From: Eubacteriales bacterium
Lineage (GTDB): Bacteria > Bacillota > Clostridia > Oscillospirales > Butyricicoccaceae
NCBI GenBank assembly: GCA_030524205.1
Contig: JAUNGZ010000004.1
Location: 1-42,745 of the forward strand
Reading direction: 5' to 3'
DNA: 42,745 bases
Shown: one piece after another, positions 9,231-41,748 of the stretch
How positions within the stretch are numbered: the first letter of the stretch is position 1
Layout: every line of letters starts with the position of its first letter
The notes under the pieces: model-generated
Told to the model about the DNA's origin: nothing
Database searches by the model: none
Seen by the model: the letters and a program-made list of their open reading frames with translations, nothing else
Translations under genes and position numbers: made by a program

Positions 9231-9280
9231 TACACTTCATCCGATTCAATTTTATACGCAACTTTACCAGATCTGCTGCA

Positions 9281-11318: not shown

Positions 11319-11386
11319 GTCATCATCTCCCGATAATCAGCATTTAAACCGTTTCTGCACATTCTTTCCGCGCTCCTTGTCCACCT

Positions 11387-12865: not shown

Positions 12866-12947
12866 TATTTAATGCTGTGTTTCCAAACTATTTGTACTCT
12901 CTGGTTTCAAGCGGTATTGCGCTAAAAAGAGCGATTGATTATATCTA

Positions 12948-22800: not shown

Positions 22801-25800
22801 AAAATTTGAAATTCCGTGATGACAACGCAGTCCTTCTTGCCCACACTGGTGTCTTGTTCACCGCGGGTAAAGGTCGCGCGGATTTTGTTTGTCGTTATGG
22901 GGTCGAAGGTGATTTCCGAGCCTACGCCCCCTCTGAAACCGTTGCGCGCGCTCTGGTTCGATACATCTGCCCACGCTTCGCCATTCCAGTATTGAATCAG
23001 CGTGTCGCTGGGAATGTAGATTCCGCCGTCCTCCCGGAAGTGGAGGGTAACGCTGCTTACCGTATGCGTCGCGCTCATGGTACAGGTCACTGTTTCGGTT
23101 TCATGAGGCGTAACGCCAACGCCACACCAGTTGCCCCAACCGTTTTTCGGATCGGTATTATAGGAAATGATACCGTCGTTGATATGCTGAAGGGGGTCGT
23201 AATTCGCCTCGTTCACATAGGCTTCAAACGTACCGCCATTGCTCGCAAGCGCCTGATTTACGCTGCTTGTCTTATTGCTCACGCGGATATGAGCGGAGGC
23301 GGTGCAGCCGCTCATTCCGGTAAGGGTTCCATTTACAATGAAAGCGGCATTCTCAACCAGCTTGTCTTTATCAATTACATCCCAAGTAACGGGATAGGCG
23401 GCCTCCGTGCCGTCGCTGTTGACCAGCTGTACCGTTTCAGGCAGCACGGGCTGTGTACCCGGCTGGGTAACGGCGCTTACCGGCCGTACGCCTACCGGCG
23501 CGACGACCTCCACGGTCGCCTTGACCGCCGCTCCGGTTTCTGTAACGGTTCCGTTTACAATGATATACCCGGCCTTGGTCAGATTTTCACCGGAAACGGT
23601 TTCCCATATTACGGCTTTTTCCGTTTTCGAGCCGTCCGCATAGCAGGCGGCGACCGTTTGGGGCAGTTCCGGCTGTACGCCTGACAGAGTTTTAATAAGA
23701 ACGGGATCGTATCCGAGAATCTCGCCGTCCGCACCGCCTGCCGCAGGCTCGGTATACACCGTTGTGCTGCTCAAAGGCAGGCCCGCAGAAGAGGCTGTTA
23801 ACGTGAAAGCCCCACTCTGGTTGGTAGACTGTACAATTACCAGAGCTTTTCCGTTGAACGCGGAACGGTTTTTGCTTTTCATGTTTGTCCAGTCAAGCGG
23901 ATTGCCGTTATCCGTGCCCACGATGCGGCCGTTACCACTTATGGAGAACTGAATATTGTTGTTTGCGCGCGGGTTCACCACGCCGTTTTCGTCCACAACG
24001 TCCACGGCAATATAGCTGAGATCCTCGCCGTCCGCGGTAATAACCGGCGCTTCGGGAGTCATCCGAATCGCGGCGGGTGCGCCGGCGGTCGCTTTCACAT
24101 CTCGGGCGACCTCACGGCCGTTGGCATCATATGCAACTGCCTCTACCGTGCCCGGCGCATAATCAACCAGCCATTGCAGATAAAGGTTCTCCTGTTCGCC
24201 GTCCGTCTGGTAGGCGAGGCTGGTTGCAGTTTCAGGATGCTGTGTAAAGCTCTGCTTACCAAGGCTTGTTCCATTGAGGAATACCTCCACCGTGGGAGCA
24301 TTGCTGTAAATACGAATGGGCATTTTGCCGTTTATTTCAATGCTTTCGTCGCTTTCCCAGTTCCAGTGCGGTAAAATGTGCACCATTGGATCGGTTTTCA
24401 CATCCAGCCACTGGCTTTGCAGCAAATAAAAGCTGTCCTTCGGGAAACCGCAGGTATCAATCGCGCCAAAGTAAGAACTTTTGGCCTGATTTGCGCCGGC
24501 AAAGGGGGCGGGCTCTCCCGTATAGTCAAAGCCGGTCCAGAAGAACACACCGCCCAAATATTTGCGCTTGGCGTCCTCTTTCAGCGCGTAGTGCAGCGTC
24601 GTACCCCATGCCACACGGTCGTTATCAAACTCCGAACACTGGTTTTTACCGCCGTGCGATGCATCGCCCGCATGGGAATCATCGTCGATCCATGGATGGT
24701 AATACTCCCCACGCGTGGCGACGGCAGATGCAGTCTCCGAGCTGTAAACAAACCAGTCAGGGTTTAGATTGTGAGCAATATCATAATCGGTATACGCGCC
24801 GTAGTTAAAGCCGGTAGCGTCGTTGTTGTCGATGAGCTGCCAGTGATCGCTGTTTTCCTTCGGGTCAAAATAATAAGAATCCAGCGGTCCAAAGAGTGGA
24901 TCTGCCTGCGTTACGGCGCGGCCGCTGTCATCGATTTCACGCACCCACTCCGCCAACTTCATACCGGTTTCCCGGCCCTTGGCGTCCCATGCCTCGCTGA
25001 TCTCATTGCCGATAGACCACATGATGACGGCGGGATCGTTTTTTGCGTCCTCCACCATATTTTTGATGTCGAACTCCTGCCATGTCTGTCCGGGCTTAGC
25101 ATCCGGATGGGTGCAGGGCTTGTCAAAAAACAGATGGAAGTCATAGTCGTTTTTGCCGCTGAACCACGTGTCGAACGCCTCGTTCATCACCATGATCCCC
25201 TGTTCGTTGCAGGAGTTGAGCAGCGCGCGCGAGGCCGGGTTATGAGAAGAACGGATGGAGTTCACACCCATTTCACGCAGAATACGCATTTGACGGTCCA
25301 GAGCGGCCTGATTATTGACCGCACCCAACGCGCCTTGGTCGTGGTGCTGGCACACGCCGCGCATTTTGGTATACTTGCCGTTCAGGAAGAATCCGTCGTG
25401 CGAAAAATCCATCCAGCGAAGTCCAAAATCGGTATCATAGGTGTCCTTGACGACCCCGTCTATCAGAATTTCTGTCTGCAGGGCGTACATACCGCCCACG
25501 CCGACCTCCCACAGATGTGGAGCGGAAACAGACAGCTTTGCGTCAACCTTCTCAGTTGCACCTGCGGCTACGCTTACCGGCTCTGAGGTGACAACGGCGA
25601 CCGGTTCGTCGCTCCCCATTTCTTTTAAGCTGCCTTTATAATAGGCATTGTGGCGGACAGTCACGGACGCCGCCGCGCCGCTCTCATTTTCCACCTTGGT
25701 CTCCACGTGGACCGTGGCGGGTTTGCCGCCGGTATATTCCTGTTCCAGATCAGGCGTAGTAACATAAGTACCGTAGCGGGCAATATGCACCGGCTCGGTA

Positions 25801-26411
25801 ACCGTCATGGTCACGTCGCGGTAGATGCCGCTGCCCGAATACCAGCGGCTGGATGGTTGCTCATTGTTGGTATAGACCGCTATCACGTTTTCCGTCATGC
25901 CGTCGGCTACCACATGGTCGGTAATATCGTAGCTGAATGGGCTGTAACCATACGGGTAGTTGCCGATCAGCGTACCGTTAACATAAACGCTGCTGTTCAT
26001 ATACACGCCTTCGAAGTCCACGCTGATACGCTTTCCCGCCATTTCCGCGGGGACAACCCAGGTCTTGCGATACCACGCGGGACCGCCGTCCAGATACCCG
26101 CCGCCGGACTTGCCGGAGGAAGCCGGATCGAAGTCATTTTCAATGCTGTAATCGTGCGGCAAGTTCAGCATGCGCCAATCGCTGTCATCAAACTCTTTTT
26201 GACCTGCGTCTTTAACCTCGCCTTTTTGAAAGCGCCAGTCCTTGTTAAAATTCAACACCTGGCGTTCCGCCTGCTTATCAGCCGCGGAGAACGGCTCTAC
26301 CGCAGCAGACGCGCCCTCTTTCTCCCGCAACGCCGCCGCTGCCGTTGCGGGAAAACATGCTGTGCTGCACATTGCTGCAAGCAGCAGTGCGGCCAAAATA
26401 CGCTTTTTCAC
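19899..26411 (-). CDS. Giant secreted SLH-anchored beta-galactosidase-like GH2 enzyme (B)
   Basis: 2,170 residues from GTG 26411, with AGGAGG upstream. Signal peptide 1-26; GH2 sugar-binding domain about 52-215 (WRMLNLPHDYSIENDF); Ig-like about 215-330; TIM barrel about 335-680 with acid/base E470 in MWSIGNE and nucleophile E559 in YSSETAS; DUF4982 and Ig-like domains to 890; Big_4-type domains about 897-1050; F5/8 type C about 1052-1210; cadherin-like about 1215-1290; further Ig/Big_4 domains to 1545; second discoidin-like domain about 1547-1725; cadherin-like; InlB-type repeat about 1809-1890; Pro/Lys linker; SLH repeats about 2009-2170. It is probably a wall-bound beta-galactosidase acting on host or dietary glycans. 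It sits 38 bp after the EbgR-like repressor, the arrangement expected for a sugar-induced operon. Confidence 0.92.
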   Translation of the reverse strand: MKKRILAALLLAAMCSTACFPATAAAALREKEGASAAVEPFSAADKQAERQVLNFNKDWRFQKGEVKDAGQKEFDDSDWRMLNLPHDYSIENDFDPASSGKSGGGYLDGGPAWYRKTWVVPAEMAGKRISVDFEGVYMNSSVYVNGTLIGNYPYGYSPFSYDITDHVVADGMTENVIAVYTNNEQPSSRWYSGSGIYRDVTMTVTEPVHIARYGTYVTTPDLEQEYTGGKPATVHVETKVENESGAAASVTVRHNAYYKGSLKEMGSDEPVAVVTSEPVSVAAGATEKVDAKLSVSAPHLWEVGVGGMYALQTEILIDGVVKDTYDTDFGLRWMDFSHDGFFLNGKYTKMRGVCQHHDQGALGAVNNQAALDRQMRILREMGVNSIRSSHNPASRALLNSCNEQGIMVMNEAFDTWFSGKNDYDFHLFFDKPCTHPDAKPGQTWQEFDIKNMVEDAKNDPAVIMWSIGNEISEAWDAKGRETGMKLAEWVREIDDSGRAVTQADPLFGPLDSYYFDPKENSDHWQLIDNNDATGFNYGAYTDYDIAHNLNPDWFVYSSETASAVATRGEYYHPWIDDDSHAGDASHGGKNQCSEFDNDRVAWGTTLHYALKEDAKRKYLGGVFFWTGFDYTGEPAPFAGANQAKSSYFGAIDTCGFPKDSFYLLQSQWLDVKTDPMVHILPHWNWESDESIEINGKMPIRIYSNAPTVEVFLNGTSLGKQSFTQHPETATSLAYQTDGEQENLYLQWLVDYAPGTVEAVAYDANGREVARDVKATAGAPAAIRMTPEAPVITADGEDLSYIAVDVVDENGVVNPRANNNIQFSISGNGRIVGTDNGNPLDWTNMKSKNRSAFNGKALVIVQSTNQSGAFTLTASSAGLPLSSTTVYTEPAAGGADGEILGYDPVLIKTLSGVQPELPQTVAACYADGSKTEKAVIWETVSGENLTKAGYIIVNGTVTETGAAVKATVEVVAPVGVRPVSAVTQPGTQPVLPETVQLVNSDGTEAAYPVTWDVIDKDKLVENAAFIVNGTLTGMSGCTASAHIRVSNKTSSVNQALASNGGTFEAYVNEANYDPLQHINDGIISYNTDPKNGWGNWCGVGVTPHETETVTCTMSATHTVSSVTLHFREDGGIYIPSDTLIQYWNGEAWADVSNQSARNGFRGGVGSEITFDPITTNKIRATFTRGEQDTSVGKKDCVVITEFQIFEKMPDTGSSTAALSSVTVNGEPLEGFSPDKTAYTVTLPFGGEIPVVAAAGADHATVLVLPAISGNSAASIQVTSEDGSRTKTYTVQFTETPAAIASAVLRLEQESVTENDVVTIRADATLEDGTLADEELLNVKYSLSGAGIPAKAEIKAGRLYAYQAGEVTVQASIGYLSNARVNAAPLTVTIQPSGDKKSILSYAAVNVTTSKGVAPVLPAVVKAKFDLGLAQDVAVIWDEIDPSQYARYGKFTVSGTVPGQALRPTATVLVRDAVAAQNQSMATPIGMAPILPKTVPVYASDGTSTVSAVAWDEYDPNGLKQEGTITINGVTELEGLPVTMSLRVTNDAIQSKNYAQLWTGFSYPMAFADFTENDIKALNNGKEDKWCSWGNPDGQTFNIGVVFGADYPESRYIDTVDLSIREDTTWDKTGIDGCTVQYYKPEFTLADMPKKPGNMLDASMSSNPLNNDENWADVENQSNPEFAYGSNIISFDMVNTYALRLKLTKKGSDPSYYLCLNELYAYGKSPVTHNDFAVSGIAADGTAIADFDPATKAYAVPVTGTAVPALTAAVDRNAAVTVLPAPNIDGESTVLITSEDGLKQITYHISFVSDTPRYQVSVKNGTAYRAVASFAEDGKIVEKYAEGEGVTVVADEPADFQAFDKWVSSDLELTAEQAAQNPMTFKMPGKDVLLAAVYKERLLTDAEAVAAAKQRIGTGVEVPYAVYTDEIAKAKAATIAAQALIGKDVTAAVLYVDGVFALTLVKNDAGATVKPFEVTVAEKTEHDGSSGGGKPSKPEDPTKEPEPPVSRPSQEFADTKTHWAALAIDYVVENNLFNGISATKFGPDEAMTRAMLMTVLARADGQDTAGGSTWYEKGMNWAMANGISDGSNPNGNITREQLVTMLYRYAGSPDVPGMVLGEFVDKSDISGFAADAMLWAAQNKIVTGKSGNLLDPQGKATRAEVATMLMRFMQKK

Positions 26412-26442
26412 TTTCTCTTCCTCCTAACTATTATCGCATCTG

Positions 26443-26454
26443 GGTAAATTTACC
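26443..26454. promoter_or_regulatory. 12-bp palindrome at the lacI-type/GH2 junction
   Basis: GGTAAATTTACC is a perfect dyad that overlaps the stop codon of the repressor gene and precedes the GH2-B ribosome site. The TTTACC half recurs upstream of the repressor (27570-27577, 27801-27812, 27836-27843). It could be an internal operator; this is speculative. Confidence 0.3.
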
Positions 26455-27481
26455 GCATTGGTCCTGCAACGCTTTGCTGTTCGTTCAATGTGGGTGCAAT
26501 AACAATCTGCAAAGGCAAAAAACCGGCTGTTTCGTTCGCAGCCTCTATCCGCTCAAGCAGCATATGAATTGCGGCCGCACTCATTACCTCCGCATGTGTG
26601 CGGATGCTGGTCAATGGGGGTACGATGGGCGGCGGATTATCCATATCACTGAATCCAAGAACCGATATATCGTGCGGCACGGACAGTCCAGCTATCTGAA
26701 TTGTCCTCACCGCGCTGATTGCCGCCGCTTCATCCGCCGCAACCAGAGCCGTCGGCAGCACTTTGCCCGCGCGAATTTGCGCAAGCAGTGCCTCGCATTC
26801 CTCTTCGGAGTTCGGCAGCGTCTCAAACATATATTGCTCGTGAAATTCTCCGCGTTCCTGCATGTATCTAATAAAGCATTGCTTACGCAGATCGAGCACC
26901 GGATAAGCCGAGCCGTCTATTTCGCCATTCGGACCAATGTACCCAATCGCTCTGTGCTTTCGCGCACCCAAATAATCAAGCGCCTGCTGAATCCCCAGTT
27001 CAGCATTCAGTACGACGGAATCAAATCTTGTCTCATCGGGTGATGCATCCACAAAAACAAGGTTTCTGCTCATACGCGTCAGCCTCTCTATCTGCTTGTC
27101 CGAAAACATACCGAGCGCAATTACGCCGTCTGCGGCAGTGGCCGGCAGCAGTTGACTTTGTTGTCCGTCCGCATATGCATGACTTAATTTGACGCCATAC
27201 CCATTACAAATTTGTTTTATGTATATTTTCATTTGCAAATAGTATGGATTATCCCGCCGTCGGTATGGCGTCAGCGCTTCTGCTATTGTGATTTGCAGAC
27301 TGCCTCTTTTCCGATATCTGCGCGGCTGCGCTTTGGTTTGATAATGCAGTTCTTTCGCTGCATAAATAATTTCATGACGTGTCACATCAGTCACTCTGAT
27401 CTTGGGATCGCTGTGAAGCACACGGGAAATAGTCGCCTGCGAATATCCGGTATATTCCGCGATATCTTTAAGAGTAGCCAT
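26450..27481 (-). CDS. LacI-family repressor, EbgR-like
   Basis: A 343-residue LacI/GalR regulator. The N-terminal helix-turn-helix ATLKDIAEYTGYSQATISRV and the following hinge region resemble EbgR, the repressor of the evolved beta-galactosidase operon. A periplasmic-binding-type effector domain follows (about 65-343), which should bind a sugar released by the GH2 enzymes. The start at ATG 27481 (MATLKD) is preceded by GGAAGGAAGC; an in-frame start 12 codons earlier lacks a site. It is the first gene of the chain with both GH2 genes and therefore probably autoregulated. The EbgR label is based on the DNA-binding region only; the effector is unknown. Confidence 0.9.
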   Translation of the reverse strand: MATLKDIAEYTGYSQATISRVLHSDPKIRVTDVTRHEIIYAAKELHYQTKAQPRRYRKRGSLQITIAEALTPYRRRDNPYYLQMKIYIKQICNGYGVKLSHAYADGQQSQLLPATAADGVIALGMFSDKQIERLTRMSRNLVFVDASPDETRFDSVVLNAELGIQQALDYLGARKHRAIGYIGPNGEIDGSAYPVLDLRKQCFIRYMQERGEFHEQYMFETLPNSEEECEALLAQIRAGKVLPTALVAADEAAAISAVRTIQIAGLSVPHDISVLGFSDMDNPPPIVPPLTSIRTHAEVMSAAAIHMLLERIEAANETAGFLPLQIVIAPTLNEQQSVAGPMR

Positions 27482-27517
27482 GCTTCCTTCCCCCATTCGG
27501 CAGCTGGCATTTTTCAA

Positions 27518-27885
27518 TTCAACGTAAGCTGAGCTGCCATTTTCAGTAAAACATCCGTATGTTTATCTATTTTACCGATACCCAAAGTCTATGGTTTTCT
27601 TCTGTTTTTGTAAAACAACTTTTTTATCGAATTGCCACAACTTTTTTTATTTCGACGAGAAAATTTTTTGTTTTATGTACATGTCACACAATTTCCCTTT
27701 GTTACTTAACCTGTATCATAAATATCACAGGGCATAATCACCAAATTTCGCTGTGAAAATTCTGCTTAGTGTTTGTGCATGCTTGCAGGAATTGTAGCTG
27801 TTTTACCGCGGTTTTACTTTTTTGTCCTCTGTGCATTTTACCTAATTTTTCTGCCCGAATTTTTACGCATAATGCTCTTTGAAGA
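27518..27885. promoter_or_regulatory. A+T-rich divergent regulatory region between LacI- and LysR-type genes
   Basis: About 370 bp without a gene. It has three TTTTACC motifs on the plus strand, one within TTTTACCGCGGTTTTA (27801-27816), whose ACCGCGGT core has the central CG typical of LacI-family operators. Both divergent genes must be expressed from here. No repressor-gene promoter stands out among the many A/T tracts. Confidence 0.45.
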
Positions 27886-27914
27886 TTGTCGTTTCCCTTT
27901 AAATTTGGTATGAT
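27886..27914 (+). promoter_or_regulatory. Promoter candidate for the LysR-type gene
   Basis: -35 TTGTCG (27886-27891), a 17-bp spacer and -10 TATGAT (27909-27914), 21 bp before the ATG at 27936. Confidence 0.6.
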
Positions 27915-27935
27915 TAAATAAAAAGTAAAGGCTGA

Positions 27936-28856
27936 ATGGGCATGACATTGAAATCACTTCAGTATTTTTGTGAAATTTGCAAAGATCTTAATATTTCCCG
28001 TGCCTCGGCGCGCATTTTTGTAACACAGCAATGTTTAAGCAAGGCAATTACCAATCTCGAAACGGAGTTTGGGTGCGCTCTGTTTTATCGCAGTCGTTCC
28101 GGTTTGCAGCTTACGCCAAAAGGCCAGTATTTATTGGCGCGCAGCCAAAAAATATTAGAGTACGTTCATGAGACAAGCGAAGTTCTAACCGGCGGTAAGC
28201 CGCTGCATGGTCTTCGGATCGGTTTGCTGATCGGTACAAGCACGGTGCTATCCAGTATACTGCCAACAGCCTTTGCCGGGGAATCTGTCACATATAAAGA
28301 ATTGCCCTCCGGCACTTTAGAAGCGCAAGTCACTTCCGGCTTGTTAGATGCGGCGATTAGTTTAAACCCTATGCGCGCAAGCTGTCTTCACGCTCGCCCG
28401 TTCTGCCGTATTCGTCTTTGCGCGGTCGTGCCTTCACAGCATTTATTGAGCGACTCACAGCAAATCTCGTTTCGTCAGTTACAAGGCGAGACTTTGATCG
28501 TCTGCAGCTCGCACCTTGATTCCTATGAAGCCATCCTGCGCTATTGTACGGAACAAGGCGTTACATTCAAGCAAACCGTGTCGGTAGCTACTCCGTTTGA
28601 CGCATTGCGGTTGTGCAGACAAAATCAGGGTATTGGTATTTTTTCTAAACAAGCGATTTCCTATTTCCAAGTTCATCATCCGAATACTTGTATTTTGGGC
28701 ATATGCGATCTTTTCTGGGATACGTTTTTTACATTGCCAGCCGCAGCTGCCAGCGGGCTGGAACAGAGGGAAAGCTCTGTAAAAGATGATTTTTTCGAGT
28801 ATCTTCTTAACCAATTGACCGAGCTGCCGCGCACAGCGATTGCGCCCTTTTATTAA
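27936..28856 (+). CDS. LysR-family transcriptional regulator
   Basis: A 306-residue LysR-type regulator. The winged helix-turn-helix (about residues 4-62) has the family pattern LKSLQYFCEICKDLNISRAS, QQCLSKAITNLE and LFYRSRSGLQLTPKG; an effector domain follows (about 95-290). AAAGG lies four bases before the first ATG; a second ATG two codons on is possible. It is divergent from the EbgR-like repressor and is the only plus-strand cargo gene of the island, next to the right attachment repeat. The target is unknown: LysR proteins usually control divergent genes, so the glycosidase operon is a reasonable guess. Confidence 0.9.
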   Translation: MGMTLKSLQYFCEICKDLNISRASARIFVTQQCLSKAITNLETEFGCALFYRSRSGLQLTPKGQYLLARSQKILEYVHETSEVLTGGKPLHGLRIGLLIGTSTVLSSILPTAFAGESVTYKELPSGTLEAQVTSGLLDAAISLNPMRASCLHARPFCRIRLCAVVPSQHLLSDSQQISFRQLQGETLIVCSSHLDSYEAILRYCTEQGVTFKQTVSVATPFDALRLCRQNQGIGIFSKQAISYFQVHHPNTCILGICDLFWDTFFTLPAAAASGLEQRESSVKDDFFEYLLNQLTELPRTAIAPFY

Positions 28857-28980
28857 ACGACAGTTTCGTGCGCACTTACTGATGAGGCAGACAAAAATGA
28901 TTTGCTCTATGTCAGTCTGTTGGATAAGTATCTGCCTAATGCGGTAAAATATTTTCTGCGGGGAGCGGGGCGCAAACGAT
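28857..28980 (+). pseudogene. Possible gene remnant next to the right island border
   Basis: After the LysR stop codon a short open frame without a start reads ...TDEADKNDLLYVSLLDKY LPNAVKYFLRGAGRKR and ends at TAA (28980-28982). The composition looks protein-like, but I cannot assign a family. It may be the end of a deleted island gene, or chance. Confidence 0.25.
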
Positions 28981-29023
28981 AAAGTTTGCCGTGTACAAAT
29001 CGGTCACTATGGGGACGAAGCCC

Positions 29024-29076
29024 TTAGGTTCTGGTGGGCAACCCCCGTGCAGGTTCAAGTCCTGTTATCCGCACCA
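29024..29076 (+). repeat. Direct repeat copy 2: truncated tRNA-Leu 3' end (right attachment site)
   Basis: 53 bases identical to 9116-9168, from the anticodon loop to CCA. The preceding 40 bases do not resemble the 5' half of the tRNA, so it is not a functional tRNA gene. Confidence 0.9.
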
Positions 29077-29079
29077 GAA

Positions 29080-29120
29080 AGACAGACCTGTCTTTTTAAC
29101 AGACGGGGCTGTCTTTTTTT
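29080..29120 (+). terminator. Strong intrinsic terminator directly after the tRNA-Leu fragment
   Basis: A 14-bp stem with one mismatch and one G-T pair (29080-29093 with 29101-29114) is followed by six T (29115-29120). Its position three bases after CCA suggests it is the native terminator of the original tRNA-Leu gene, displaced by the island. Confidence 0.85.
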
Positions 29121-29327
29121 ATACTCCAAAGTGGCTTTTTACTACAATACCAGCTTGTTATCCAGCGTAAACCTATTTATGCTCAGGGTTTGTGTTCAGC
29201 GGTCAATATAAACTTGACTATAAATGAGTTTAACGAAAGGATGGAACAACGTATGTTGATACATTATAGATTTAAAAAATGTTCGATGGCATTGCAAGGA
29301 TAAGCCTTAATCTCTTTCTATGGCCCC

Positions 29328-29356
29328 TTTACAGATTGTGCTAAATATAATACAAT
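29328..29356 (+). promoter_or_regulatory. Promoter candidate of the helicase/DUF2290 operon
   Basis: -35 TTTACA (29328-29333), a 17-bp spacer and -10 TACAAT (29351-29356). A small dyad ATAAC-GTT-GTTAT (29373-29385) follows near the expected transcription start and could be an operator. Bases 29121-29327 hold no gene that I can support. Confidence 0.6.
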
Positions 29357-29398
29357 ATAGACCAACATATCAATAACGTTGTTATGAGAGGTATTTTG

Positions 29399-29638
29399 AT
29401 GGATGTTAATATGCTTTTGGATAAGGCAATTTTAGAAACAGCTCAACTCATGGAAAATGAAATATTTTTAGTTAAAGATTTGTTTAAAGGTTATGAATGG
29501 AACCGAATTCCACGAAGCGATAGATTGCTGCTTGGTACGTTATTTCTTAACTATGTCAATAAGACGAATGGTCATATTCAAGCTGCACAAAAAACAGCAT
29601 CCGGCCAACAAAAATATATTGTCGGAAAAACAGCTTAG
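29399..29638 (+). CDS. Small DUF1413-like protein, first gene of the helicase operon
   Basis: A 79-residue protein. The pattern EIFLVKDLFKGYEWNRI, then RSDRLLLGTLFLNYV and a C-terminal GQQKY, matches what I know of the DUF1413 family, small proteins of unknown function. The start at ATG 29399 is chosen for GAGAGG seven bases upstream; an ATG five codons earlier has no site. It lies 60 bp before the helicase in the same direction, in strongly A+T-rich sequence. It has no membrane segment or signal. In context it may be a regulatory or partner subunit of the downstream proteins; that is inference. Confidence 0.65.
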   Translation: MDVNMLLDKAILETAQLMENEIFLVKDLFKGYEWNRIPRSDRLLLGTLFLNYVNKTNGHIQAAQKTASGQQKYIVGKTA

Positions 29639-29698
29639 TTTTATGAGGTCAACTAAATTTTATTGAACATCATTAATGTTTTAGAAAGGCGATAGAGT

Positions 29699-31849
29699 AT
29701 GGTTACAATTATCACTGGTACAACAAATAAACCAATGTCAAGCGACCAGTTGAAAAACTACTTTCAGACGCGTAATGAGTTGACCGGCTATTTATATATT
29801 GGCTATCCTATTATTGGAACTGTTAACGGTGCATATCCGATTGATGCTTTGTGGATTTCCCCGGAAAAGGGGCTCGTTGTTTTCAATTTAGTGGAAGGAC
29901 GAGATGTTGAAGGATATGAAGATGCACAGGACGATTGTGCAAACAAGATGGAAGCCAAATTAAAGGGCTATAAACAGCTAACGCAAAGACGAAAGTTATG
30001 TGTAGAAATACATGTTATTACCTTTGCCCCTACCTTGACCCGCCTTCCAAAATTTGATGAGTACTATCCGCTTTGCAACGAAAACACGCTTGATGCTACA
30101 ATTGAAAACTTGTCTTGGGATGATAGCCATTTTTACGAAGATTTGGTGTCTGTGCTACAAGCCATATCAACTATTCGTAAGGGCAAAAAAAAGCGTGAAA
30201 TCATAAATCCAGAATCAAAAGGTGCAAAACTTCGATTCTTGGAAGATTCTATTGCAAATTTAGATAATAGGCAAAGTCGCGCTGTCATCGAAACAGTGGA
30301 TGGTGTTCAGCGAATTAGAGGCTTAGCAGGATCAGGAAAAACTATTGTGTTGGCGCTAAAAGCAGCTTATTTACATGCACAACACCCTGAGTGGAAAATT
30401 GCCATTACTTTTAACACTCGATCTTTAAAAGGCCAGCTGCATCAATTAATAAATACATTTTATATCGAGCAAACCAGCGAAGAGCCTGATTGGGATAACA
30501 TGCAAATAATTCATGCATGGGGAGCCGCTGGTGGTGGCGAGAGAAATGGTATGTATTACACCTTTTGTGCAACTAACAATGTAGAATACAATGATTATAT
30601 GACTGCTCGAAATAAGTACGGAATGAGCGACCCATTTGGTGAGGTTTGTAATAAGGCACTGCATGAAGCCTCTTCTGCAAAAGCGCTCTTTGATGTTATA
30701 TTGATTGATGAAGCACAGGACTTTTCGCCAAGTTTTTTACGCTTATGTTATGAGATGTTAAATGAGCCCAAAAGATTAGTTTATGCATATGATGAGTTGC
30801 AAAATTTGCGTTCGCAGTCGCTACCTTCTCCTGAAATCATTTTTGGCAATTTGCCTAATGGTACACCTCGTGTGAAATTTAGCGCAGTAGAAGATGGTGC
30901 GGCACAACAAGATATAATTCTTGAAAAATGCTACCGGAACTCTCGCCCTGCGCTGGTTACTGCACATGCATTAGGATTTGGCATATACAGAAAGCCCTCG
31001 GAGCCTAAGGGATCAGGATTAGTCCAAATGTTTGACCAAAATTCACTATGGCATGACATTGGTTATGAGGTAGCAGAGGGCGCTTTGGAAGATGGAAAAC
31101 ATGTTGTTTTACAAAGGACTATGCAAAGTAGTCCAGAGTTCTTGGAGAAACATTCGAGTATTGACGATTTAATTGTATTTCAGTGCTTTGATACGCCAGA
31201 ACAGCAAAACGAGTGGGTTGCACAGCAAATAAAAATGAACCTCGAAAACGACGAGTTAAGACCAGATGACATTATTGTTATTAACCCCGACCCACTGACT
31301 ACCAAAAGAGCAGTCGCACCCATCCGCTCAACACTTTATCAACTTGGTATTGATTCGCATACCGCAGGTGTTGACACCGCTCCTGATGTGTTTTTTGCAA
31401 ATAACAATGATTCGGTTGCATTTACAGGTATTTATCGAGCAAAAGGCAATGAGGCTGCGATGGTTTATATTATCAATGCACAAGATTGTTATGATTCGTT
31501 TTTCGATATGGCTAAGATTAGAAATCAACTGTTTACTGCAATAACACGAAGCAAAGCATGGGTTCGTGTACTTGGTGTTGGAAAAAATATGAGGGGGCTT
31601 ATTGGTGAGTACAAAAAAGTAAAGGAGCACCAATTTACTTTAGACTTTATTTATCCGACTCAAGCTCAGCGTAATCACATGAACGTGGTAAATAGAGATA
31701 TGAGTGAAGCTGAAAAAAGCAAAGTTCGTAAAAACAAAGGTAATCTCGCAAACTTGATATCTGAATTGGAAAACGGACAAATTTATCTTGAGGATTTAGG
31801 AGAAGATCAAATAGCACGTCTTAGATCTCTTTTGCAAAAGGAGGACTAG
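29699..31849 (+). CDS. Superfamily 1 (UvrD-like) helicase with nuclease-like N-terminal domain
   Basis: 716 residues; AGAAAGGCG precedes the ATG. Residues 1-165 resemble a NERD-type PD-(D/E)xK domain (IDALWISPEKGLVVFN around 48-63, D49), but the expected ExK is replaced by FNL, so cleavage activity is doubtful. The helicase core follows: Q-motif LDNRQ (188-192), Walker A GLAGSGKT (208-215), Walker B IDEAQDF (336-342), motif III-like AYDELQNLR, motif IV KCYRNSRP, motif V FTGIYRAKGNEA and motif VI FTAITRSKAWVRV. It therefore should hydrolyse ATP and translocate on nucleic acid. It is coupled to the DUF2290 gene five bases downstream. Its composition (low G+C) differs from all neighbours, and a defence role is the most likely reading. 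Confidence 0.88.
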   Translation: MVTIITGTTNKPMSSDQLKNYFQTRNELTGYLYIGYPIIGTVNGAYPIDALWISPEKGLVVFNLVEGRDVEGYEDAQDDCANKMEAKLKGYKQLTQRRKLCVEIHVITFAPTLTRLPKFDEYYPLCNENTLDATIENLSWDDSHFYEDLVSVLQAISTIRKGKKKREIINPESKGAKLRFLEDSIANLDNRQSRAVIETVDGVQRIRGLAGSGKTIVLALKAAYLHAQHPEWKIAITFNTRSLKGQLHQLINTFYIEQTSEEPDWDNMQIIHAWGAAGGGERNGMYYTFCATNNVEYNDYMTARNKYGMSDPFGEVCNKALHEASSAKALFDVILIDEAQDFSPSFLRLCYEMLNEPKRLVYAYDELQNLRSQSLPSPEIIFGNLPNGTPRVKFSAVEDGAAQQDIILEKCYRNSRPALVTAHALGFGIYRKPSEPKGSGLVQMFDQNSLWHDIGYEVAEGALEDGKHVVLQRTMQSSPEFLEKHSSIDDLIVFQCFDTPEQQNEWVAQQIKMNLENDELRPDDIIVINPDPLTTKRAVAPIRSTLYQLGIDSHTAGVDTAPDVFFANNNDSVAFTGIYRAKGNEAAMVYIINAQDCYDSFFDMAKIRNQLFTAITRSKAWVRVLGVGKNMRGLIGEYKKVKEHQFTLDFIYPTQAQRNHMNVVNRDMSEAEKSKVRKNKGNLANLISELENGQIYLEDLGEDQIARLRSLLQKED

Positions 31850-31854
31850 AAGAT

Positions 31855-32532
31855 ATGCTAACGGCTAAAAAAATCCATGAGCAGATTAATCGATTAACAA
31901 TTAATCTGATAGAAACAGGGCTGTGTGATGCGCAAAACTTCCCATCAATAAATCAGTATTCTGGTGGCATTGAAGAAGTTGGAATTAGTGATTCAAACAA
32001 TTCAATTTTCCTAAAAAGCATTCCATATTCTGAAATGTACACTCAACTTATGGAACAAAAAAACTATAATTTTAGGATGATTGATGGAGCATTAATTTCA
32101 ATGCTTTATCGCTTCAAGAACAACAATTTAGTGTCACATCGACTTTCCTTCTTCCCTTCTCCTGACTTAGAGACATTTCAAAATGAACCAGAACTCTATT
32201 GGAATGATGCGTTGTATGGGGATATTATTGACAAGAGAATTGTAACGGTTCCTATTAGGTTCGATTTCGACAATGACGAAAACACGGTAAAACCAATTAC
32301 TCACCCAATCTCGCACTTTACTTTAGGGCAATATGAGCATTGTAGGATTCCTGTAGTTGCAGCACTAACACCATACCAGTTTTTAATGTTTATAACTATA
32401 AACTTTTATCACACAGGACATCAAAAGTTTAGCAATCAATTTACAGTCTTTCATGATTGCTTTGAGGCTACCATTTTTGATGAAGAAAGAGAAATAATTC
32501 ACATTCATACCCCAAGGTATAGCGGGCATTAA
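31855..32532 (+). CDS. DUF2290 family protein, partner of the helicase
   Basis: A 225-residue protein with the features of DUF2290: HRLSFFPSPDLETF near 98-111, VPIRFDFDNDEN near 140-151, HPISHFTLGQYEHCRIPV near 156-175 and TPYQFLMFITINFYHT. The family has no known activity; the many conserved His, Asp and Arg suggest a catalytic or nucleic-acid-binding role. AAAGGAGG lies in the end of the helicase gene, ten bases before this ATG, so the two are translated together. It is a cytoplasmic protein without signal or membrane segments. DUF2290 proteins occurring beside helicases fits a defence-type pair, but I know of no named system with this exact set. Confidence 0.82.
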   Translation: MLTAKKIHEQINRLTINLIETGLCDAQNFPSINQYSGGIEEVGISDSNNSIFLKSIPYSEMYTQLMEQKNYNFRMIDGALISMLYRFKNNNLVSHRLSFFPSPDLETFQNEPELYWNDALYGDIIDKRIVTVPIRFDFDNDENTVKPITHPISHFTLGQYEHCRIPVVAALTPYQFLMFITINFYHTGHQKFSNQFTVFHDCFEATIFDEEREIIHIHTPRYSGH

Positions 32533-32940
32533 CAGTCTGTTGGTTTTTAATGAATTTAGCTTGCATCTATTTTGTACTAATAAAAATATGTACAGAGTAA
32601 GCATCAAGAGAATTGTAAAAACAAAAAGGTGATCAATTGAACTGCTCTAATAGCTTTTCAAGTCTTGCGGTTCTAGTAGCTTAGGCCACCTCAGCTGACA
32701 GGTTTGACTTTAAACAACTCTTTGCTTTCGAAGCGGACACGGTTTTCGAACGTCAGGTTAAACCGTCAATTGTTCCTTGTCTTGCAAGAGACGCGATATG
32801 TGGAACGCAAAAAACACCGTGTGGATTGGCGATCAGCTCTATAAGCCCACTCTACCGGATTTTCGACATCGTATCGCGAAAGACAGGCTGTTGGGTAAGC
32901 TGTGTAATTATCTTAACCCTGCTAAGCTAACGCAAAATAT
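32533..32940. other. Unassigned intergenic stretch after the helicase operon
   Basis: About 400 bp. Short open frames on both strands read like protein (plus strand RRDMWNAKNTVWIGDQLY at about 32790; minus strand NLTFENRVRFESKELF at about 32700-32760), but none has a start, ribosome site or recognisable family. It may hold remnants of genes at the edge of the A+T-rich insertion. Confidence 0.35.
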
Positions 32941-32941
32941 T

Positions 32942-32988
32942 AAAAAAAATCCGTACCGGCAGCCAATGGCTGCCGGTACGGATTTTTT
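32942..32988. terminator. Bidirectional terminator between the defence-like region and the SLH protein gene
   Basis: Perfect 17-bp arms (32949-32965 and 32967-32983) with a one-base centre, flanked by eight A on the left and a T6 run on the right, so a T-tract follows the stem on both strands. It ends the minus-strand SLH gene (stop at 33039) and stops plus-strand readthrough. Confidence 0.9.
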
Positions 32989-33038
32989 ATTGGCTATTTT
33001 TGCTCGAACATTACAAGCCATTCTAAACGATTTGCGTA

Positions 33039-36000
33039 TTATTCCTGCCAAGTTTCTGTGCCATTCTCAGCCGCATCAAATTTGTGTGCGTTGGCGGCCT
33101 CTTCAATGTCGTAGTAAGCCCAATGATTTCCTGTCACATCGGAGAAGGACTTGAGCGTACCGATATGAGCCTGAATGTACTCTTGATCAGGCCGGCGAGC
33201 CAGCATCCGGTTGACAATCGTCGTGACCTCGGCGCGCGTCACGGGATTTTCGGGGCGGAACGTGCCGTCCGCGTATCCGCCGATCCAGCCGTAATAGGCC
33301 GCGCCTGTGATATAATTGTGCGCCCAATGGTTCTTGGGTACATCGGTAAAGGTTTTTGTGCCGGTCACGTTTGTGGCAAAACGCATGGCGATCGTCGTAA
33401 ACTCAGCGCGGGTGATGTTCCGGTCGGGCTCATACTTGTTCTCTCCGACGCCGGAAACGATGCCCAAATCGGCGAGTGTGCGCACGGCCTCCGCGTACCA
33501 TGCGCCGTTTTGCACATCGGTAAACTGCCTGCTGCCGGAAGCCTTCTTTTCCTTAAGCAGGTTGAAGAACATCTGTGCGGCTTCCGCGCGGGTCATGTTA
33601 TGCTCAGGGCCGAAGCTGCCGTCCGTGTAACCGTTCATATACGCGCCGTGCTCTTCCACATTGAGCAGCTTGTCCACGCCGTTGGTATGCGGGTCGCCGG
33701 TCGCCGTCGTCGCAGCAAAGACGGCCGTGACGCTCACCGGCTGGTTGGATGCGGCGGGCTGCGTGTAACTGTATTTCCCGTTCCCTTCGTCCGTGAGCTT
33801 GATTTCGCTGCCCTTCTTATCCGTTACCGTCAGCTTGTCAAGCTGATAGCCCGGGTCGGGAACGACCGTGATCGTCACCTTGGCATTCGCGGCAGGATTT
33901 TTGGGAGACACCGTTACCGTGCCGTGGCTGGGCTTGTTTACATTGACGCTGCCCGAGGAGCCGGAAGAACCGGAGGAGCCGCTGCCGCTGTGGGTGCCGG
34001 AATTGCCCGGATTCTCATTCTCGGCGGGAACGTCGCCCGCGAAAACCGGATCGTCAGACCAGACGATGGCATACGTCGAATAGAGATGGGATTCAAAGGT
34101 GATTTTGGTGCCGGAAGCCTTGGAGGGAATGCGCTGCGCCGTGCCCTCGTGCACCCGGATCACATTGTAATACTTATGGTTTTGGATCGCGCTCGGGATG
34201 GGCAGGGTGATCGTGATGGGCTGCGGCACCTCCTTCACCTTGCTGGTGTCGGTCGATACCAGCTGGCTGCCCTCGGTCACCTTGACCTCCTTTTCAATGG
34301 ATACATCGAAATACGCGCCGACCTCGGCGCCCTTGGCCGCCGCCTCCGCGTTGCGCACATCCAGAACCGGCGCGGCGTCGGTGACGTCCTCAGCCTTCAG
34401 CGAAAGGGTAACAGCCACATTCTTGCTGCTGGCCGCGTCCACCTCTTCGCTGTCAAGCAGCAGGCCGCGCTGCGCGCTGAGCTGCTCCCTGGCTTCGGCG
34501 GTGTTCTGAATGCCGTTTGCGTTTGCAGCAACCGCCAGCTTGCCCGCCAGCAGGCTTTCCAGCTTGCCGGAAAGCTTGCCGACCTCCGTTGAGGAAACCT
34601 GCTTTTTCTGCTCGGTGGTCAGGCTGCCGAACGCCGCGACAGCGTTCTTTACGTTCTCCAACGTGCCGCTTGCGCCGTTTGCGGATTCGATGTTCTGAAT
34701 AACTGTCTGAAGCGCAGCGGCGGGACTCATCGTCAGCCTGCCGCCTTCGCCGGTGATGGCCGCGCTAGTGCTGGTTCCGGTTTCCGACCATGTGCCGTAA
34801 GTCACCTTACCGTCCTTGTCCACGGTGACAGCGGCGGTCAGTGTGGCTTTCTTCTCCGCGTTTTCCGGGTCGTTTACGGTGACGGTGGCGATGTAGCTGC
34901 CCTCGGGAATGCCGGTGACGGAGAACGTACCGTCGCTCGGGCTGATCGCGGAGGCGCCCCAAGTCTTATTGGGATTTGTGCCGGTGAGCTTGATCTCCGC
35001 GTCGGAGGGGAACGTGCCGGCCGCGTATTTCAGCTCGCCCTCCACCTTATGGGCGGGGATCGTGAGCACCTTGTCTCCGGTGAGCGCGCCGCTTGCGACG
35101 GTGATCTCCTTTTCGGTTTTCATGCCGCCCTGCTCGACTGTGACGATGTAGGCGCCGTCGGGCAAATCGGATACGTCCAGCTTGCCGTCCGCAACCTTCA
35201 CCTTATCGGATTCAGGGTCTTTAGTCGGCGCTTTGCCTGCGACGGTGATCTTGGCGGCGGTCGCGGTCGCGTCGCTCGTATCCACAGGCAGCAGGCCGCC
35301 GTCCGGGCCAATCACGGTCAGCTTGCTGTTTTCCGCCTGCAGCAACATATCGGCTGTTTTATGTCCGTCAGACTCACTGATCGTGCCCTCGGCGGTCTCG
35401 CCGTTTGCAGATGCGGACACGGTTGCTCCATCGGGTACGTTGGGAATGACATAGCGGCCGTTTTTATCTGCCGTCGCGGCGGCAAGCACGTTGCCGTCCT
35501 TATCCTTTACGACCACGGCCGCGCCCGCGGCGGGCTGTCCCTCGCTGTTTGTGACCGCGCCGGTCAGCAGCTTGCCCTTGGTATTCTCCTTCAGGGCGTT
35601 CGAGCCGTCCGAGACGCCGTCCAGCGTGATATTGGTGCTGCCGGTGACCTTGCCGTTCTGATCGACGTTAAACGGGCCGGCCGCGCCGTTTGTGCCGCTC
35701 ACGTCGACGCTGGCGTGATAGGGGCCGTTCGCGGGGTCGAGCCCCTCTACGGCCCAGCCGCCGCCCTCGCCGGTGGTGATCGTCGCGGGCGTGGTGGGAG
35801 CCACCTTGTTGCCGTCTTTATCCAGAATAGTGACCGCGGCGCCCGTGACAGGCTTGCCGTCCTTATCCATGACAATGCCGGAAATCACGTTGGAATGCGT
35901 GGGCTTGGTCTCGGGCAGAGAAATATTTGCATCCGTCTTATCGGTATTGCCGACGGTTACGTTCGCCTGCGCCGTCTTGCCGCCGGGCGCGGCAACGGCA

Positions 36001-39000
36001 ACCGGATAGTCGCCGGCGGGCACGCCCGCAATATAATACTTACCGTCTGCGTCCGTGGTTACGGTGACCTTTCTTGTGCCTGCGGTGGTGAGGCCGCCGT
36101 CCTTGTCCACATTCTGCACCGGAACCGTGACGGTGACGCTCGCGCCCGAAACGGGCGTGCCGCCATCCCTTACCGTGCCCGAAACCACATGGCCGGGAAC
36201 GGGAACGATATCCATGCTCTTATACGGCGCGAGGGGTCTTGCGGCATGGTTTGCGTCCACACGGATCTCTGTAATGCCCGTGACCGCGGTACTGACCACC
36301 GTGCCGGCGGCCTTGACGACATAGTCGCCCGCCGGAAGAGCGCTGGTATCCAGCACATACGCGCCCGCGTCGTCGGTGATAACCACACTGCTGCCAGTGG
36401 GGAGGGTGACCGCTGCGCCGGTGGCCTTGTTGAGAACGGTGATTGCCGCGCCCTTCATCGGCTCGCCCGTGGCGGGATTGGTAACAAGGCCGACAGCGAG
36501 GTTCGTTTCCTCTTTCTTTACTTCGATATCCGCAAGCGTCTGCGGCTGTGTTTTCGCAAACGTCACGGTGCTGGCCGCGCCGCCCTTGGCGGACTCGACC
36601 ACAAGCGTATACGCGCCGGGAAGGAGCACGCCGGACTCAGCCTCGATTGTGTACTTGCCGTCCTTGTCCGTTTTGGCGGTCAGCTTCTTGGTTCCGCCGT
36701 CGGTGGTGGCGACCACGACGCTTACCGCAGCGCCCTCCACGGGAGTATTGCTTTCGTCCTTCACAATGCCGCTCGCCTGCATCGCGCCGACCTTGGCGAC
36801 CGGCGTGCCGGGCAGCGTGGGAACGCCGATTGCGCCGTCCTCCGTGTGCGGACGCAGCACAACCTCATATTCCTTATTGGGGTCCAGACCGTCGAAAACG
36901 AGATCAGCGGAGCCCGTGCCCTGCTGCCAGCCATCGGCGGCGCTGCCGGCCGCCGTGTCCACGGGGGCAACGACCTTGCCGGTGGCCTTTTCCACCACGG
37001 CGTAGTCGTACTTTGCATTCGTGCCGTCCCCCTTGACGGTGATCTTGTCTTTGCCGGGGTTTTTCGCCGCGTCGGCGGCGTTGGTATCGCGCTCCAGCTT
37101 GTCCGCCGCAACCGCCGCGTCCGCCGGGGTTACGATTGCCGCGCCGGCGTCCTTCTTGCTTTCCGTGGTAACCTCGTTGCCGCTGCCTGCTCCCTTCACG
37201 GGCTTTGCCACAACGGTGTACTTGGTTTCGGGATCCAGTCCGGTAAAGCTGACCGCGCCGTTGACCGGAGCGGTCCAAGCGCCCTGATCAACCGCTTTTC
37301 CATCCTTATCCACCAAGCCGTACACCATATCCTGATCGGCGGGCTTGACCGTGATGGTGGCTGTCGACGAGTCGTCCGCCCCCTTCACGATGGAGCCGGA
37401 AAGCTGCTCTTCGGCCACAGCCGGGATCGCCTTGGACGGGCCGACGGGGTTCTCGACCTTCGCCGGGGCCTCCGCGTCCTTCGGCAGCGTGACGACGGTG
37501 TATTCCTCGCCCACGTTCAGCGGTGCGAAGGTCAGTGCGCCGCCTGTTCCGGTCTGCCAACCGGCCGCGCCGCCGACCACGTTGCCGTCTTTATCCACTA
37601 CGGCGTACTTGGTATCCGTTTTGGTGTCCTGCACCGTGACAGCGCCCTTGCCCGCGTCGGTAACGCCCGCGCTCACGTCGCCGGGCTTCACGGTGGAACC
37701 GGGCACCGGCACGCCCGCGCCAGGCAGGGAGGCGGGAGTACCGTTCGTGCGGGTCACAACCGTGTAATCCTCGCCGGGGGTGAGGCCGTCAAACGTCAAT
37801 GCGCCGCCATTACCAGCTTTCCAGTCGCCGACCACGTTGCCGTTCTTATCCAAAACGGCATAGTCCTGTCCGTTCTTAGCCGGATTCACAACAATTTTAT
37901 CCTTGCCGTCGACATCGCCGTCCAGACGGCTTACGTCCTTGCCCATTACATCGGTAAAGTCACTGGCGGGCGTTTTCACGTCAACGCCCTGCTCCTTTTT
38001 ATCGCTGGGCTTGCCGGTGTCTTCGCCTCCGGCGGGCTTGGGACGCGCCACGACCTTGTATTCCGCACCTGCGTCCAAGCCGGGGAACTCCACCTTGCCG
38101 CCGTCAACGTCTTTCCAGCCGCCGTCCTTGCCGTCGAGCAAGTCGTTGCCGTCCTTATCCACCAGCCCATACTGCATATCCGGATCAGCGGGGCTGACGG
38201 TAATGGTAGCGCTTGCGCCGCCGGTCTCGTCCGTTTGAATCGATGCGGAGAGCTGGCTGTCCGTCGCGGCGGGAATCCGCACGCTCGGTCCGGCCAGCGC
38301 GCCCGGCTCGCTGGGATAGGGGCTGTCGCCGTCGGGCTTGGCAGTGTTGCCGCCCTCGACAGTGCCGTCTTTATCCGCCGCATTGTCCTTGGGCAGGGTT
38401 ACCACGGTGTATTCGCCGCCCACGGGCAGGCCGGAAATATCCAAAGCGCCGCCGCTGCCGGTGATCCAGCCGTCCTTATCGGTCTCGCCGCCCCCGGTAA
38501 CGGGAGCGACCACCTTGCCCGTGGCTGTGTCCACCACGGCGTACTTCGTGTTTTCATTGGTCTTCGCAATGGTGAGCTTGCCCTTGCCTTTTTCGTCCGC
38601 GCCCAGCGTTACGTCGCCGGGCTTCACGGTGGCGGCGGAAACCGTCACGCCGGGCGTGTGCAGGGACGCGTCCTTGCCGTCTCCCGCCGGGGTGCGGGTC
38701 ACGACCTCGTAATCCTTTTTCGGGTCGAGATTATCAAAGGTCAGAGCGGTTTCGCCCGCGCCCGTTTGCCAGCTCCCGACGACCGCTCCGGTCTCCTTGT
38801 CGATCACGGCGTATTCCTGCGAGGTTACGGTGGGTTTCAGGACGATCTTGTCCTTGTCGCCGCTGCCGTCCTCGCGGGTGATGCTGCCGCCTACTTCCTT
38901 GATATCCCCGGCGGGCGTGGTGACGGCGGTGCCGTCCTCTTTTTTTGCGGTGGTTGCAGTCGTTTCGTCTGTAGCGGGCTTTGCGACCACAGTGTATTTT

Positions 39001-40616: not shown

Positions 40617-40653
40617 CCCAACATCTCCTCAATTCATATATGATATATGGTAA

Positions 40654-40740
40654 AGGCCGTGAAGGCCTATTGTCTTTAGGTTCGCCCTTATGCCCCAGCC
40701 CTGCTGGGGCATAAGGGTACCCCCCTAGGGGGGTACCCTT
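40654..40740. repeat. Cluster of perfect hairpins upstream of the giant surface protein gene
   Basis: Three dyads in a row: AGGCC/GGCCT (40654-40668); perfect 14-bp arms starting CCCTTATGCC (40685-40698 with 40704-40717, 5-base loop); and a perfect 28-bp palindrome (40713-40740) centred on CCTAGG, sharing AAGGG with the previous arm. No T-tract follows on either strand, so these do not look like standard terminators, although they lie downstream of the mscS stop codon. Confidence 0.85.
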
Positions 40741-40755
40741 CCTTTTTCCTCCAAT

Positions 40756-41715
40756 TTACTCGCCTTGGTGAACGACCACCTGCGGGAACGGTATTTCGAC
40801 GCCCGCCTCGTCCAGACAGAGCTTCAGCTCCCGGTTCAGCAGCCGCCGCGCGCGGTAAAGCTGGCTTTCCTCCACCTTTGCGACAATCCTGAGATCGACC
40901 GACGAGGCCGACAAGCTCTCCACGCCGCTGTATTCGGGCTTGGCCTTGAACACGTCGGGGTACATGGAGGGCAGCTTGTCCAGCAGCGCGCGCACCGCCG
41001 CCTCGGCGTCCGGAATGCTCGCGCCGTAGGAAATGCCGACCGTCGTAACGGCGTAGGATTCGACCTCGGACAGGTTTGTCAGCGTGCGGATATCGGAATT
41101 GTTGATGATTTTGATATTGCCGCCCACGTCCATCAGCCGCGTGGTGCGGATGCCGATGGAGACCACCGTGCCGCGAAAGCCGTCTATGGTGATGATGTCG
41201 CCGACGTGGAACTGTCCCTCAAAGATGATGAACAGGCCGGTTATCACATCCTCGATCAGCGTTTGCGCGCCGAAGCCCACGACCAGCCCCAAAATGCCAA
41301 GGCTGGCGATAACGGCCACCATGTTCACGCCCAAGATCGAAAGGCCGAAAATCAGCCCCAAGATCACCACCGCGTATTTCACGCAGTTGCACGCGAGACC
41401 CTTGAGCGTTTCCGCGTGGCGGGACTTCAGCTTCACTTTTTTGTGAAACGCGTTCACCAGCGTGCAGACCGCCCAGCAGAACGCCGCCAGCACCGCCAGC
41501 GCCAGCAAGCGGAGCCAGTCGAACCCGCCCTTCGGCCCGGAAAGGGGCAGCACGCCGGTGAGATAGGTGCGCCGGAACACGGTAACGACGCTTTGCTGCG
41601 CCGGGGTCAGGAAAAACAGAAGCCGGGGGTTCGCCACTGCCGCCGCCACCCCGGCAATCAGCGCGATGGCGATCAGCTTGCCGATGGGAAACCGCTTTTT
41701 CTTATTCTCTTGCAC
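40756..41715 (-). CDS. Small-conductance mechanosensitive channel, MscS family
   Basis: A 319-residue MscS-type channel that opens on membrane tension and releases solutes during hypo-osmotic shock. Hydrophobic segments lie near residues 12-30, 68-90 and 113-135; the pore helix region is GVNMVAVIASLGILGLVVGFGAQTLIEDVITGLFIIFEGQFHVGD, with the typical Gly/Ala packing, followed by the beta domain (ITIDGFRGTVVSIGIRTTRL) and the alpha/beta vestibule. It starts at GTG 41715 with AAGGAG upstream. It lies 33 bp after the partial surface-protein gene in the same direction. Confidence 0.93.
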   Translation of the reverse strand: MQENKKKRFPIGKLIAIALIAGVAAAVANPRLLFFLTPAQQSVVTVFRRTYLTGVLPLSGPKGGFDWLRLLALAVLAAFCWAVCTLVNAFHKKVKLKSRHAETLKGLACNCVKYAVVILGLIFGLSILGVNMVAVIASLGILGLVVGFGAQTLIEDVITGLFIIFEGQFHVGDIITIDGFRGTVVSIGIRTTRLMDVGGNIKIINNSDIRTLTNLSEVESYAVTTVGISYGASIPDAEAAVRALLDKLPSMYPDVFKAKPEYSGVESLSASSVDLRIVAKVEESQLYRARRLLNRELKLCLDEAGVEIPFPQVVVHQGE

Positions 41716-41748
41716 GTGTTTTCGCTCCTTATTTGGCTTTTTGGGACG

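Follow-up and report, generated by a model that had tools for sequence, protein, structure and literature searches.

A known Helicase+DUF2290 anti-phage pair with a probably exchangeable DUF1413 head gene at a tRNA-Leu repeat border in a genome of the Butyricicoccaceae

Do three adjacent genes beside a transfer RNA (tRNA) repeat make up a new defence system, or a known one with another gene in front? This question is raised by a stretch of 42,745 nucleotides from a Eubacteriales bacterium of the Butyricicoccaceae (GenBank assembly GCA_030524205.1, contig JAUNGZ010000004.1, positions 1 to 42,745), which was analysed as a whole and is called the window here. Its positions 29,328 to 32,532 had been put forward from the letters alone as a candidate undescribed three-gene defence system (the original prediction). 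Open reading frame (ORF) calls and Pfam agree on three tightly spaced genes on the forward strand: a DUF1413 gene (29384-29638, +; ORF of 84 amino acids; Pfam DUF1413, PF07205, 1.7e-19, 70.2 bits against a cut-off of 25), a superfamily 1 (SF1) helicase gene (29699-31849, +; 716 amino acids; UvrD-helicase 1.7e-08, UvrD_C_2 2.1e-08) and a DUF2290 gene (31855-32532, +; 225 amino acids; Pfam PF10053, 1.4e-47, 162.2 bits against a cut-off of 25). In our reading, 29699-32532 is probably the core of the known Helicase+DUF2290 system, located at the left end of a segment that is bounded by tRNA-Leu repeats and carries conjugation genes, and headed by an exchangeable DUF1413 leader outside the core, with a promoter-like sequence and an operator-like palindrome.

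Sequence comparison makes it close to certain that the helicase and the DUF2290 protein form a member of the already described Helicase+DUF2290 anti-phage system. The helicase matched PADLOC model PDLC03002 with 1179.9 bits (residues 1-714, nearly the full model), and the DUF2290 protein, likewise over nearly its whole length, matched PDLC02999 with 311.6 bits; the gene order is that of the system, helicase first and DUF2290 adjoining. Rousset et al. 2022 (PMC9122126) report inhibition of phage T7 by an ATP-dependent helicase acting together with its DUF2290 protein, and occurrence of the pair in two other prophage hotspots. Later literature carries the name Rst_HelicaseDUF2290, and a 2023 review (PMC10952713) lists the system and notes that no study had explored what its UvrD domains do. 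A match to a described system was thus found, and "undescribed" was wrong because the PADLOC models and Rousset et al. 2022 describe the pair. The published system comes from a P4-like satellite hotspot, whereas the copy in the window is headed by DUF1413 and a palindrome and sits on a tRNA-Leu-bounded segment. Gabija, too, pairs an SF1 UvrD-like helicase with a second protein, and one Gabija locus (L190; L numbers denote individual loci) even has a DUF1413 gene upstream. However, the partner in the window is DUF2290 rather than an OLD/TOPRIM nuclease; no GajA partner is present, the protein matching DUF2290 models only in PADLOC, and GajB models match the window helicase weakly (26 bits at best). 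The system is therefore known; what is new is a member variant with an exchangeable DUF1413 head.

The recurrent pairing of helicase and DUF2290 across genomes was confirmed. Among the genome loci, which are the best 80 of 510 relatives, a helicase ORF longer than 1.8 kb was found in 77, and a DUF2290 ORF adjoined it in 74 of these 77. The helicase is in pieces in two of the 74 (L023, L067) and DUF2290 in another two (L083, L088); the exceptions are a 57-amino-acid fragment (L034), a contig end (L085) and a locus with no DUF2290 detected (L091), and contig ends account for the three loci with no helicase ORF listed (L040, L041, L061). In one of the broken cases, a Pseudomonas metagenome-assembled genome (L083:2394-6351), the two DUF2290 pieces lie about 3.3 kb apart, a possible insertion. 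The pair was also present in all seven plasmid loci opened, from 12 plasmid records with a match. Within 60 related genomes, 45 of them at least 90% complete, DUF2290 occurs solely in the genome under study, and in a sample of the phylum in 5 of 398 genomes, this genome included. No DUF2290 was found in phage records, and neither window protein of the pair, searched singly, matched viral contigs.

In single loci the pair clearly lies among defence genes. One pair lies inside a BREX locus of Thioflavicoccus, one beside Hachiman (HamA 2.2e-121, HamB 5.2e-232) and one, as we read its neighbours, between specificity-like and hsdR-like genes (L013). At E ≤ 1e-20, PADLOC assigned 185 families in 122 neighbour ORFs versus 60 in 76 control ORFs, a comparison that weighs neither for nor against enrichment of the pair in defence islands, since families and not proteins are counted, the models are redundant and the control held CRISPR genes. 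Neighbour ORFs were at most the two nearest per locus, of 200-900 amino acids, from L017-L096, with L019 and L020 left out because they nearly duplicate L018; control ORFs came from 13 stretches (18 intended, of which four did not exist and the 2-kb L131 was left out). The three near-identical loci just named, from Flavonifractor An92, Anaeromassilibacillus An250 and Faecalibacterium An122 (L018, L019, L020), share upstream ORFs with identical coordinates, including a C5-methyltransferase, which points to recent transfer among three gut isolates of different genera. An SF1/UvrD-type core would also suit a housekeeping repair helicase operon with no role in defence, but we consider this very improbable indeed: DUF2290 is in none of the 59 other related genomes, pairs occur on plasmids and in the BREX locus, and a relative with published activity against T7 exists (PMC9122126).

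Does DUF1413 belong to the system as a third component? No DUF1413 came up when the 113 loci collected for the pair (L001-L113) had their ORFs searched with the window protein (phmmer, E ≤ 10); these loci include a part of the window without DUF1413 (L001), short versions (L002-L005) of L013-L016, and loci in which a contig end cuts the sequence near the helicase. The three-gene core of the original prediction thus did not hold, an obligate three-gene system was rejected, and by sequence DUF1413 stands outside the core. A 60-bp gap between DUF1413 and the helicase, with no terminator predicted on the + strand between them, and the rarity of both families in the phylum sample (DUF1413 in 12 of 398 genomes, DUF2290 in the five mentioned) would fit a new system of three genes, with DUF1413 as obligate adaptor, antitoxin or sensor in this lineage. 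We regard this as improbable, since, besides the negative search of the 113 loci, DUF1413 was matched in only one of the 12 genomes that hold near homologues of the pair, and there on a 46-kb contig while the pair is on a 341-kb contig, and since DUF1413 heads many other operons. The genome under study has a single DUF1413 copy. Elsewhere the family was found in 10 of 394 genomes of the order, in 4 phage records, at 20 and 22 viral-contig loci (two overlapping scans) and on 158 plasmid records, 145 of them from Enterococcus.

Between a promoter-like sequence and the DUF1413 start lies the feature that best marks a control region. The motif AATAACGTTGTT (29372-29383, +) differs by one mismatch from the consensus AACAAYRTTGTT, and the palindrome ATAACGTTGTTAT occupies 29373-29385 (+). 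Across 18 non-redundant 60-base regions upstream of DUF1413 starts, AACAAYRTTGTT was present exactly in 13, in 16 with at most one mismatch and in 17 with at most two; shuffles gave 0 exact matches, 0.16% at up to one and 2.3% at up to two mismatches, and 80 control ORFs of the same loci gave none, none and one. Start codons for this count were set by hand, regions at least 85% identical to a kept one were dropped beforehand (L176-L180 and L198 among them), and the distant L158 and L159, both without the motif, were left out. In the window, 29372-29383 is the only match with at most one mismatch in 42,745 bases (0.32 expected). With C or T allowed at position 3, the motif was found near the helicase start (-400 to +60, where the sequence reached that far) in none of 77 helicase loci; the palindrome therefore goes with DUF1413, a linkage that the sequences support well.

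The original prediction had given the operon its own promoter. Hexamers resembling a sigma-70 promoter are indeed present (TTTACA-17-TACAAT, 29328-29356, +), but the number of promoter-like sites in the region, 15, is not above that in shuffles (13.3, standard deviation 3.4), and the conserved palindrome is better evidence of a control region than the hexamers. The place of the palindrome, a likely ribosome site and the homologues make ATG 29399 the likely start of DUF1413 rather than 29384. As promoter, palindrome and gene keep their order while the cargo varies, autoregulation of DUF1413 through the palindrome is suggested, and we propose from its sequence context that DUF1413 is a small DNA-binding regulator.

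Close DUF1413 relatives (54-69% identical to the window protein) precede very different genes on the same strand, mostly 12-91 bases away. Cargo with family support includes the gene pairs IetA/IetS (5.6e-73 / 2.4e-51), MzaB/MzaC (2.6e-89 / 5.3e-121) and, as third and fourth genes with a gap of about 290 bases before the third, GajA/GajB (6.8e-173 / 2.9e-213). Further cargo of this kind comprises, in second and third place, two members of the HEC-06/Orf5/SspE group (8.3e-31, 2.5e-27), a PDC-S15/FRG protein (1.3e-46, with Pfam FRG at 1.1e-14), PDC-M46B in second place (9e-202), an LmuB-like ATPase in third place (1.4e-60), PIN_8 together with a C5-methyltransferase (7.7e-35, 3.4e-48), ABC-3C CTD1 (9.7e-54) and ABC-3C CTD6 with a weak Mrr_cat (5.9e-33). 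Including the window, 11 of about 20 distinct cargo types are family-supported defence cargo, a fraction that is not an unbiased rate. Five cargo proteins encoded directly beside DUF1413 or close to it had no Pfam match at 0.01 (L175, 192 amino acids; L176, 361; L179, 480; L184, 335; L191, 332) and are candidates for undescribed defence genes. By eye, the 332-amino-acid proteins of L179 and L191 look alike.

Shared regulators of the CapW/BrxR type are found before different defence systems. DUF1413 is like them in this position, and differs in its size of about 80 amino acids, in its Pfam family and in that its regulatory role is only proposed. Tentatively, with the balance tipping slightly to the other side, DUF1413 and AACAAYRTTGTT may form a transferable control head that has been joined on mobile elements to at least 10 defence cargoes in addition to Helicase+DUF2290 (Gabija, IetAS, MzaBC, ABC-3C types, DUF262/GmrSD-like, FRG, PIN plus methyltransferase, others). 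The accessible parts of the literature on DUF1413 and on serine recombinases with defence cargo, PMC11706625 among the latter, held no report of such a pattern.

Several observations weigh against such a control head. The link between DUF1413 and defence rests on a hand-picked cargo set, 10 proteins having been passed to PADLOC and 9 (plus one recombinase) to Pfam as promising. Three cargo types were read as non-defence without a family search, namely a response regulator (L178), a DUF1538-like protein (L187) and VanZ-like proteins (L192, L193, L196); a nucleotidyltransferase type common to Enterococcus, Staphylococcus and Streptococcus records has an unclear role, and the remaining cargo types of the roughly 20 are without family assignment or family search. 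The consensus AACAAYRTTGTT fails clearly on an Enterococcus plasmid (L206). Moreover, 20 of 30 DUF1413 loci, a set that includes near-copies, have a same-strand serine recombinase ORF upstream, 13 of the 20 at a distance of 137-147 bp. A DUF1413 ORF of Clostridioides difficile R20291 is inside an invertible segment beside a recombinase (PMC5903667), and DUF1413 is listed next to cch in a staphylococcal cassette chromosome (SCC) element (PMC8046974).

DUF1413 and its palindrome might then belong to a serine-recombinase element or serve as a site of recombination, with defence cargo accumulating beside a favoured integration site. We judge this unlikely, though it is the strongest of the alternatives. 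The recombinase is present in 19 of 20 viral-contig loci but in only 1 of 10 loci from genomes, plasmids and phage records, and the palindrome is kept where no upstream recombinase was found in the sequence at hand (L156, L196, L198, L199; with one mismatch in L203 and the window). It also sits between the promoter-like sequence and the start codon, and the DUF1413 protein is strongly conserved, with 31 invariant columns in 12 aligned sequences. Directly upstream of DUF1413 in the window there is no serine recombinase, the last gene before the repeat at 29024-29076 encoding a LysR regulator. An invertible segment around this gene was rejected, as the only inverted repeat of at least 12 in 29078-29800 is at 29078-29116. 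In the SCC and invertible elements, too, DUF1413 is near recombinase genes; unlike here, no link to defence operons or to a palindrome is reported in the accessible text of PMC8046974 and PMC5903667.

Which protein of the Helicase+DUF2290 pair would act on the phage? Walker A (GLAGSGKT, residues 208-215, about 30320-30343) and DEAQ (residues 337-340, about 30707-30718) are invariant in nine aligned helicases, the window included. The original prediction had described the helicase N-terminus as nuclease-like, and residues of about 1-160 (29699-30178, +) do have a predicted PD-(D/E)XK-like fold, in which the E-x-K motif is missing. D49 is kept in 96 of 101 sequences, but the positions that we take to align with the catalytic Glu and Lys of the motif are not conserved: the Glu position has D 38, N 29, H 13, S 8 and R 3 as its five most frequent residues, and the Lys position V 49, I 38, S 3, A 2 and T 2. 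A NERD domain (PF08378) was matched by none of nine members at E ≤ 10 within HMMER's filters. An active PD-(D/E)XK nuclease was rejected on the loss of E-x-K, and an arrangement in which the helicase N-terminus cuts and DUF2290 is accessory seems quite unlikely, despite the predicted fold and the conserved D49. A second, structural comparison of the predicted fold placed the domain closest to Schlafen linker domains, with a borderline Z score; a PDB search gave no sequence match of the domain to Schlafen. Unlike Schlafen group III (SLFN5, SLFN11, SLFN14), the window helicase has no Schlafen core nuclease, as no such family is among its Pfam matches, and begins with the linker-like domain. In the parts available of publications on Schlafen linkers and prokaryotic Schlafens (PMC12839542, PMC8789055, PMC9482658), the present pattern is not described.

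In DUF2290, D77, R135, H150, H154, R164 and F176 are invariant in 64 aligned sequences, and because of these invariant D, R and H residues DUF2290 appears the likelier catalytic effector than the helicase N-terminus. Compared with PDB and viral models, its predicted fold matched nothing at E ≤ 0.001; the best viral-model match was Gp492 of Bacillus phage G (9.6e-3).

The position of the operon fits a defence operon at an integration border, a part of the original prediction that is supported. The tRNA-Leu gene lies at 9083-9168 (+), and a 53-bp direct repeat has its first copy in the 3' part of this gene (9116-9168); a second, att-like border copy (29024-29076, +; 100% identical) precedes the operon and a third identical one lies outside the window (contig positions 77890-77942; contig of 123,952 bases). 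The border is thus an exact repeat of the tRNA end and not a second tRNA gene; ARAGORN and Rfam reported the tRNA at 9083 as the only one in the window. The three repeats bound two tandem segments, 9116-29076 and 29077-77942, and the operon lies at the left end of the second, immediately beyond the first. The first carries MATE, TetR, transglutaminase-like, LacI and LysR genes and two SLH-anchored GH2 enzymes, the latter glycosidases of 2276 and 2170 amino acids, and no integrase was recognised among its genes scanned. Rightward in the second (contig 47581-75273) are a relaxase, a TraG-type ATPase, a type IV secretion system coupling protein, two large serine recombinases, ArdA and a ParB-like protein. 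The site may be used repeatedly, as in a second genome of the genus a short, partial tRNA-Leu end (93%, query bases 942-969) follows the tRNA at a distance of about 117 bases (contig 2707-2942).

The A+T-rich patch was recovered, with a fraction of guanine plus cytosine (GC) of 0.374-0.402 in the four 1-kb bins of 29001-33000 and of 0.458-0.602 in 9001-27000 and 0.515-0.644 in 33001-42000, but GC is already 0.401 and 0.476 in 27001-29000. Translational coupling of helicase and DUF2290 is plausible from the 5 bp between stop and start and an AGGAGG within the end of the helicase gene, though the genes do not overlap. A strong terminator-like stem with fully complementary 22-nt arms (32944-32988, strand not assigned) lies between the operon and a convergent gene (33039-40616, -) for a 2525-amino-acid SLH-anchored protein with carboxypeptidase-regulatory-like repeats.

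Taken as a working model of the Helicase+DUF2290 operon and its head, the DUF1413 protein would bind the AACAAYRTTGTT palindrome, which lies between promoter and start codon, and hold the operon at a low level, as the position and conservation of the palindrome suggest. By analogy with SF1 defence helicases such as GajB, and from its fold, the ATP-driven helicase might recognise an abnormal DNA structure made by replicating phage; its catalytically dead PD-(D/E)XK-like N-terminal module may serve binding or gating, and the helicase would then activate DUF2290 as the likelier catalytic effector. The conservation, the dead-nuclease reading and the likeness to Schlafen linkers point to concrete residues of the helicase system. 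If the control head is real, diverse immune systems would share one switch, through which they could be triggered or silenced jointly by a phage or element. With many defence operons headed by one small conserved gene and one operator, defence islands would follow a common regulatory logic; DUF1413 would then be a marker for undescribed systems, several of its cargo proteins having no Pfam match.

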